Assembly (NCBI GenBank): GCA_015075625.1
Contig: JABTTZ010000004.1
Coordinates: 186,001 to 250,000 of the forward strand
Length of the DNA stretch: 64,000 bases
Direction: 5' to 3'
Source: Anaerolineales bacterium
GTDB lineage: Bacteria > Chloroflexota > Anaerolineae > Aggregatilineales > UBA2796
A program made the translations under genes and the position numbers. This document shows, one piece after another, positions 55,751 through 55,896 of the stretch (position 1 is its first letter; each line of letters opens with the position of its first letter). The notes under the pieces are model-generated. The model saw only the letters and a program-made list of their open reading frames with translations, was not told the origin of the DNA and made no database searches.

Positions 55751-55896
55751 AGCAGGGCAGTGAGTGTGTCGGATACTTCAAGGTCTAGTGGCGCAAGCCG
55801 TGCAGGTTCGATCCCTGCCTTCTCCTTCGGGAGATGTGGCGGAATTGGCAGACGCGCTAGAGAAAATACCGGCGCCAAGATTCTCCCTGTTTTTTT
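55751..55896 (+). ncRNA. Y RNA 3: permuted tRNA-Leu(CAA)-like head on a Ro-binding-like module
   Basis: Outer helix AGCAGGG/CCCTGTT, internal loop CAGTGAGT/CAAGATTCT, inner helix GTGTCGG/CCGGCGC (7 bp with two G-U pairs), then ATACTTC facing GAAAATA. The head is a tRNA-Leu in permuted order: TTCAAGG loop and TCTAG (55777-55788), variable arm GGC-GCAA-GCC, T arm GCAGG-TTCGATC-CCTGC, acceptor strand CTTCTCC (55819-55825), a TTCG tetraloop (55826-55829), acceptor strand GGAGATG (55830-55836), the D arm, and CTAGA (55857-55861), which pairs with TCTAG. The acceptor has one T-T mismatch. A seven-T run at 55890-55896 ends it like a terminator. Confidence 0.85.

Follow-up and report, generated by a model that had tools for sequence, protein, structure and literature searches.

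Why should the 3' half of a tRNA-Leu be written before its 5' half, and be joined to it by four bases, upstream of a gene for a Ro60-like protein? The question is raised by an element, here called Y4, in the 64-kb window (the whole stretch of DNA that was analysed). The next gene after Y4, about 325 nt downstream, encodes a TROVE-domain protein, and four candidate Y RNAs (Y1, Y2, Y4 and Y5) lie upstream of it (Table 1). A Y RNA attaches to Ro60 by a stem and bears an effector module; the Y RNA of Deinococcus serves to tether Rsr to PNPase (PMC7790460, PMC8394870). We propose, with a probability of about 0.8, that Y4 is a Y RNA of the adjacent Ro60 (Rsr) ribonucleoprotein and presents a tRNA-Leu-shaped effector module. 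An earlier note on this DNA had read the element as a permuted, acceptor-capped tRNA-Leu mimic on a Ro module, and this reading is supported by a match to a covariance model from which Y4 was left out, by the TROVE neighbour and by conserved relatives.

Structure of Y4 and its tRNA-Leu body

Y4 is built from a base stem, a Ro module, a permuted and capped tRNA-Leu body and a T-run. Read 5' to 3', the base stem GCAGGG is followed by GCAGTGAG, the helix strand GTGTCGG, ATACTTC-AAGG, TCTAG, the variable arm, the T arm, CTTCTCC, TTCG, GGAGATG, the D arm, GCTAGA, GAAAATA, the helix strand CCGGCGC, CAAGATTCTC, CCCTG and seven T. All segments of the permuted tRNA-Leu that the earlier note had named, 3' half before 5' half, are present in that order. 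Its closure of the acceptor by UUCG agrees with the pairing of CTTCTCC and GGAGATG across TTCG at six of seven positions, and the anticodon stem TCTAG/CTAGA, fully paired, opens into the Ro module as described there. The Ro-type strands flank the tRNA body and pair around it, and the paired ends of the RNA form a Ro-type stem.

Table 1. Features of the candidate Y RNA array and the TROVE gene, in window coordinates
Feature	Position	Strand	Evidence or remark
Promoter-like TTGACA-16-TATGAT, upstream of Y1	55266..55293	+	11/12 matches; number of sites within chance expectation
Y1, sister RNA with reciprocal permutation	55346..55473	+	covariance model without Y1; covariation over 12 sequences
Y2, long candidate Y RNA, approximate ends	55478..55740	+	Ro motifs; T-arm-like hairpin near 55662
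Y4, whole candidate Y RNA	55752..55896	+	sequence; pairing list; covariance-model match with Y4 left out of training
Y4 Ro module, 5' strand	55753..55779	+	pairing; motif also in Y2, Y5 and Myxococcota RNAs
Y4 CAGGG	55753-55757		part of Ro 5' strand
Y4 GCAGTGAG	from 55757		part of Ro 5' strand
Y4 GTGTCGG	55766-55772		part of Ro 5' strand
Y4 ATACTTC	55773-55779		part of Ro 5' strand
Y4 TTCAAGG, possible tRNA-Leu(CAA) anticodon-loop remnant	55777..55783	+	TTC overlaps Ro motif
Y4 tRNA-Leu 3' half	55784..55825	+	un-permuted ARAGORN call; pairing list
Y4 anticodon stem, TCTAG	55784-55788		5/5 pairs with CTAGA
Y4 variable arm, GGC-GCAA-GCC	55790-55799		
Y4 T arm, GCAGGTTCGATCCCTGC	55802-55818		5/5 stem pairs
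Y4 acceptor 3' strand, CTTCTCC	55819-55825		6/7 pairs with GGAGATG, one U.U
Y4 UUCG cap, connecting acceptor 3' and 5' strands	55826..55829	+	pairing list
Y4 tRNA-Leu 5' half	55830..55861	+	
Y4 acceptor 5' strand, GGAGATG	55830-55836		
Y4 D arm	55839-55855		
Y4 anticodon stem, CTAGA	55857-55861		
Y4 Ro module, 3' strand	55869..55889	+	
Y4 CCGGCGC	55869-55875		part of Ro 3' strand, followed by CAAGATTCTC
Y4 base stem, CCCTG	55885-55889		part of Ro 3' strand
Y4 T-run, seven T	55890-55896		
Y5, plain candidate Y RNA without tRNA-like body, approximate ends	55920..56040	+	counterpart: second RNA of Myxococcota loci
TROVE-domain (Ro60/Rsr-like) protein gene	56221..57837	+	Pfam PF05731 1.8e-13; PDB TROVE chains 8.8e-18

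When the halves are rejoined as 5' half plus 3' half, ARAGORN calls a tRNA-Leu(caa) of 85 nt. An ordinary tRNA was rejected, as neither ARAGORN nor Rfam calls one in the native order. The body shows the class II (Leu) fold with Leu-type D arm, variable arm, T arm, acceptor stem and anticodon stem; its nearest tRNAs in the genome are the five Leu genes, and its D-arm string recurs in tRNA-Leu genes there. The earlier assignment to tRNA-Leu(CAA) is thus upheld by the un-permuted call, but its anticodon is less certain. CAA is plausible from the sequence; the TTC of TTCAAGG is also part of the Ro-module motif (TTACTTC) common to the sister RNAs, so the case for CAA draws on relatives and not on the Y4 copy by itself.

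Constrained to the cloverleaf, Y4 folds at -46.7 kcal/mol, 1.6 kcal/mol higher than its unconstrained minimum (-48.3 kcal/mol), which is a different fold; with this gap folding energy alone does not single out the cloverleaf, and comparison does. The minimum-energy fold, the U.U acceptor pair, the score against the Rfam YrlA model and the missing orthologue in the one same-genus genome (both given below) speak against Y4 as a Y RNA. The final seven T, taken for a terminator in the earlier note, are there, but a terminator scan calls none at this place.

If transcribed, Y4 would bind Rsr through its outer stem (GCAGTGAG-helix-TACTTC / helix-TTCTC). Beyond the Ro stem it would open into a tRNA-Leu-shaped module with acceptor, D, T and variable arms and anticodon stem, whose 5' and 3' ends would be fused through the encoded UUCG loop; fused ends would preclude charging, CCA addition and end trimming. 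Because this cap is encoded, the end-joined or circular RNA considered earlier is not suggested. A protein that recognises tRNA would find in this module the tRNA elbow and the long variable arm; on the model of YrlA and the Deinococcus Y RNA, Y4 may tether such a protein to Rsr or gate the Rsr ring.

Capped bodies at related TROVE loci

Do similar capped bodies occur beside other TROVE genes? A scanner that requires a T arm, then the two acceptor strands (3' before 5') joined by a cap, and then a D arm was run over both strands of the window and finds exactly one such arrangement. In 29 TROVE loci of the same order it gave 56 matches, of which 55, in 19 loci, were retained after inspection (one match, in L121, was removed as spurious). 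Reversed sequences yielded none, and 1.44 Mb of shuffled sequence yielded one. TTCG is the cap in 6 of the 55 capped bodies counted at TROVE loci.

A Leu D arm (GCGGAA..GGCAGACGC or close) is present at nine TROVE loci, namely L001 (Y4), L112, L114, L115, L117, L119, L123, L128 and L136, and bodies bearing it are also found in the array L178; most of them retain the class II variable arm. The check for tRNA-Leu-type capped bodies beside TROVE genes of relatives, proposed in the earlier note, was therefore positive in eight further genomes of the order.

Related TROVE loci carry several body types each, in arrays. Such arrays would suit the main rival for function, in which the capped bodies would imitate particular tRNA isotypes without being chargeable, would keep part of the anticodon loops and, carried by Ro60, would act as a sink for nucleases that attack tRNA or signal tRNA damage. 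This view agrees with the Y RNA reading on what Y4 is and differs on what Y4 does. It gains from the tendency of Leu anticodons to stay in Leu-bodied mimics: T, a Leu anticodon and a purine stand between Ro motif and variable arm in 7 of 10 Leu bodies against 6 of 39 others (Fisher p 0.0016, with rows that are not independent and an anchor misplaced in some of the others). Many non-Leu bodies have a small anticodon-like hairpin after the Ro motif, in a scan that includes some chance hairpins, which again favours a decoy or sensor set; in several capped bodies, however, the anticodon loop is not recognisable. A decoy role has been raised as a possibility for YrlA, but Salmonella YrlA is not cleaved (PMC7790460), and a search for a linked nuclease gene found none. 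We consider a decoy or sensor role of Y4 possible but unlikely.

The same relatives decide whether Y4 might be recombination debris, that is, two tRNA-Leu fragments that came to lie side by side and have no function. Its 5' half is close to the tRNA-Leu(cag) of the genome, and a covariance-model search and inspection of the TROVE locus found no Y4 orthologue in the one genome of the same genus, both of which would fit debris. Against this, none of the genome's Leu tRNAs has an acceptor that matches the one in Y4, the two strands of the Ro module pair with each other around the body, and the arrangement recurs with covariation in other genomes. In 38 capped bodies other than Y4, pairs form in 97.8% of stem cells, and 130 cells have changed on both sides, against a mean of 32 after shuffling; covariation scores 0.850 versus 0.218 for shuffled and at most 0.157 for slid alignments. 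Double-sided changes are found at every acceptor pair, contradicting the debris scenario that the earlier note had raised. A covariance model of these 38 bodies returns Y4 as the top match in the 64 kb (50.4 bits, E 4.4e-14), and its second match in the window is the border of two ordinary tandem tRNA-Thr genes. Chance or debris was ruled out by covariation and by recurrence in other genomes, and we hold a debris origin of Y4 to be very improbable.

Since model R1 also matches pairs of ordinary tRNAs in tandem, taking the T arm from the first and the D arm from the second, with up to about 52 bits, at least 54 bits were required for estimating TROVE association. In 154 genomes of the order, 40 of the 44 model matches at this level lie within 6 kb of a TROVE gene. 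Two of the remaining four (G072 and G006) have Ro-type flanks on other contigs; the other two (G070 and G114) are a different RNA.

This different permuted tRNA-like RNA was seen in three genomes of the order: L180 (G070:C10:203323-203387, +), L181 (G114:C184:6189-6242, -) and L186 (G069:C182:1939-2001, +). Its halves lie about 4-12 nt apart after an encoded CCA, as in L180 (CTCCGCC-ACCA-TTTAAGACACA-TGGCGGAG), and no Ro motif was recognised in it. A permuted tRNA gene is one possibility for it, some other structured RNA a second.

The array beside the TROVE gene and its open form

In Y1 the tRNA parts stand in their normal order and the tRNA ends are free: seven acceptor bases are paired, and D arm, T arm and a small anticodon hairpin (CCA-TTCGTAA-TGG) are present. 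Its Ro module is placed between D arm and anticodon arm and is hairpin-capped at the outer end. With Y4 capped and Y1 open, the two modules occur in both circular arrangements at one locus of the window, which makes it a naturally occurring example of circular permutation in RNA. Y1 and its relatives, 12 aligned sequences in all, pair in 94.5% of cells and score 0.510 for covariation, compared with 0.227 shuffled and at most 0.185 slid; covariation of the Ro helix is seen in this open form. A covariance model built without Y1 finds it at 101.5 bits (E 5.8e-22).

Y2 has a closed stem (CCTGATGG/CCATCAGG), and no D arm was found in it. The string GCAGTGAG-N9-TACT has three exact matches in the 64 kb, all of them in Y2, Y4 and Y5.

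In Myxococcota, rsr genes are likewise preceded by a Y1-type RNA and then a plain Y RNA. With Myxococcota proteins (Polyangium, Sorangium, Nannocystis and others) the TROVE protein shares 60-67% identity, whereas the TROVE proteins found in its own order and phylum reach only about 25-35%, and that over parts of the sequence. Both the gene and the Y1/Y5 layout are far nearer to Myxococcota loci than to loci of the host's own order. Judged from these sequence comparisons, the TROVE/Y RNA locus may have been acquired by horizontal transfer. A search for plasmid carriage gave only short tRNA-like matches, none spanning 80% of the query. Two distant TROVE loci from the Myxococcota searches (L153:2499-3236 and L166) contain arrays of capped permuted tRNA bodies; both forms thus exist in Myxococcota.

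Just upstream of the array, the opposite strand (48350-54889, -) encodes a protein of 2179 aa that has DUF11 repeats together with SH3_3 and Big_1 domains. The genes that adjoin related TROVE loci, among them those for kinases, pentapeptide-repeat proteins and phosphatase-fold proteins, gave no common functional hint.

Open tRNA-Y RNAs of a different make lie upstream of TROVE genes in a family of the host's phylum other than its own (L140:199-330 and 502-609, L145 and L146). Some of them have an encoded CCA, and A-CCA ends are found in L145 and L146. In Rfam searches several open forms come out as tRNA containing a long insert, and open tRNA-Y RNAs may have been taken for tRNA genes in annotations. 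Where two capped units adjoin, their border gives a weak score as open form; reciprocal permutation could perhaps have arisen by register shift in tandem arrays.

A broader and rather doubtful proposal combines these observations. Ro60 loci of the order, of another family of the phylum and of Myxococcota would hold RNAs made of tRNA and Ro module in two reciprocal permutations. The capped ones would be isotype-specific panels, class II Leu included, showing tRNA bodies and anticodons as decoys or sensors, and some open forms with encoded A73-CCA (L145, L146) would be chargeable and link Ro60 to translation. The Y RNA reading of Y4 itself widens tRNA mimicry by Y RNAs from a generic mimic of D and T arms to near-complete isotype-like tRNAs, including class II with variable arm. 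It also makes testable whether such mimicry addresses proteins that take tRNA in general, such as PNPase and tRNA-modification enzymes, or those that distinguish isotypes, such as synthetases and anticodon nucleases.

Comparison with known systems

In permuted tRNA genes of algae and archaea the 3' half is written before the 5' half, as it is in Y4. That processing joins the halves of Y4 into a working tRNA-Leu(CAA), as in some of these organisms, can hardly be credited: the body is complete, reads as tRNA-Leu(caa) once un-permuted, and the genome has an RtcB ligase, but the ligase gene sits on another contig, an ordinary tRNA-Leu(caa) is present elsewhere in the genome, the acceptor holds a U.U, paired Ro-type strands fuse the body to a Ro module, and the four-base cap, with neither free ends nor discriminator nor CCA, leaves no room for RNase P and RNase Z, on which grounds this candidate was rejected.

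In plan Y1 resembles tmRNA, in which a tRNA-like domain likewise has free ends and carries a large insert. The insert of Y1 is, however, a Ro module in which no tag reading frame was identified, and the ends of Y4 are capped.

Beside TROVE genes, L118:5245-5310 (-) and L127:7708-7773 (+) reach the Rfam gathering score of RF01656, nematode stem-bulge RNA. Stem-bulge RNAs have been termed homologous to Y RNAs (review PMC4726728).

The Y RNA/Rsr/PNPase complex of Deinococcus radiodurans resembles our locus in combining a TROVE protein with an adjacent Y RNA, and a tether and gate role has been proposed for it (PMC7790460). An effector and degradation role of this kind would be conjectural for Y4.

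The closest likeness is to YrlA (Rfam RF02553; Salmonella YrlA, PDB 6CU1), which has an outer Ro-binding stem and is encoded beside rsr; T arm, capped acceptor and D arm follow in the same order in Y4 and in the Rfam consensus. Superposed on tRNA, the crystal structure of YrlA proves to be a circular permutation of it (PMC11472068), and the rotated capped layout itself is already known as YrlA architecture. Comparison with the YrlA covariance model, which the earlier note had proposed, bears out the order of elements but not membership: Y4 scores 19.8 bits, below the RF02553 cut-off of 69, and none of 16 related loci reaches the gathering score. Y4 is therefore classed as a Y RNA with YrlA-like architecture and not as a member of RF02553. 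It differs further in its Ro-module sequence, in its class II Leu body with variable arm and anticodon stem, and in its place in an array with other tRNA-like Y RNAs. In the literature covered, with primary Y RNA papers outside this coverage and novelty accordingly unproven, no description was found of class II bodies, isotype panels or reciprocal permutation. As far as checked, what appears to be new with respect to YrlA are the class II Leu bodies with variable arm, the isotype-diverse arrays and the opposite rotation of Y1, which is conserved in Myxococcota.
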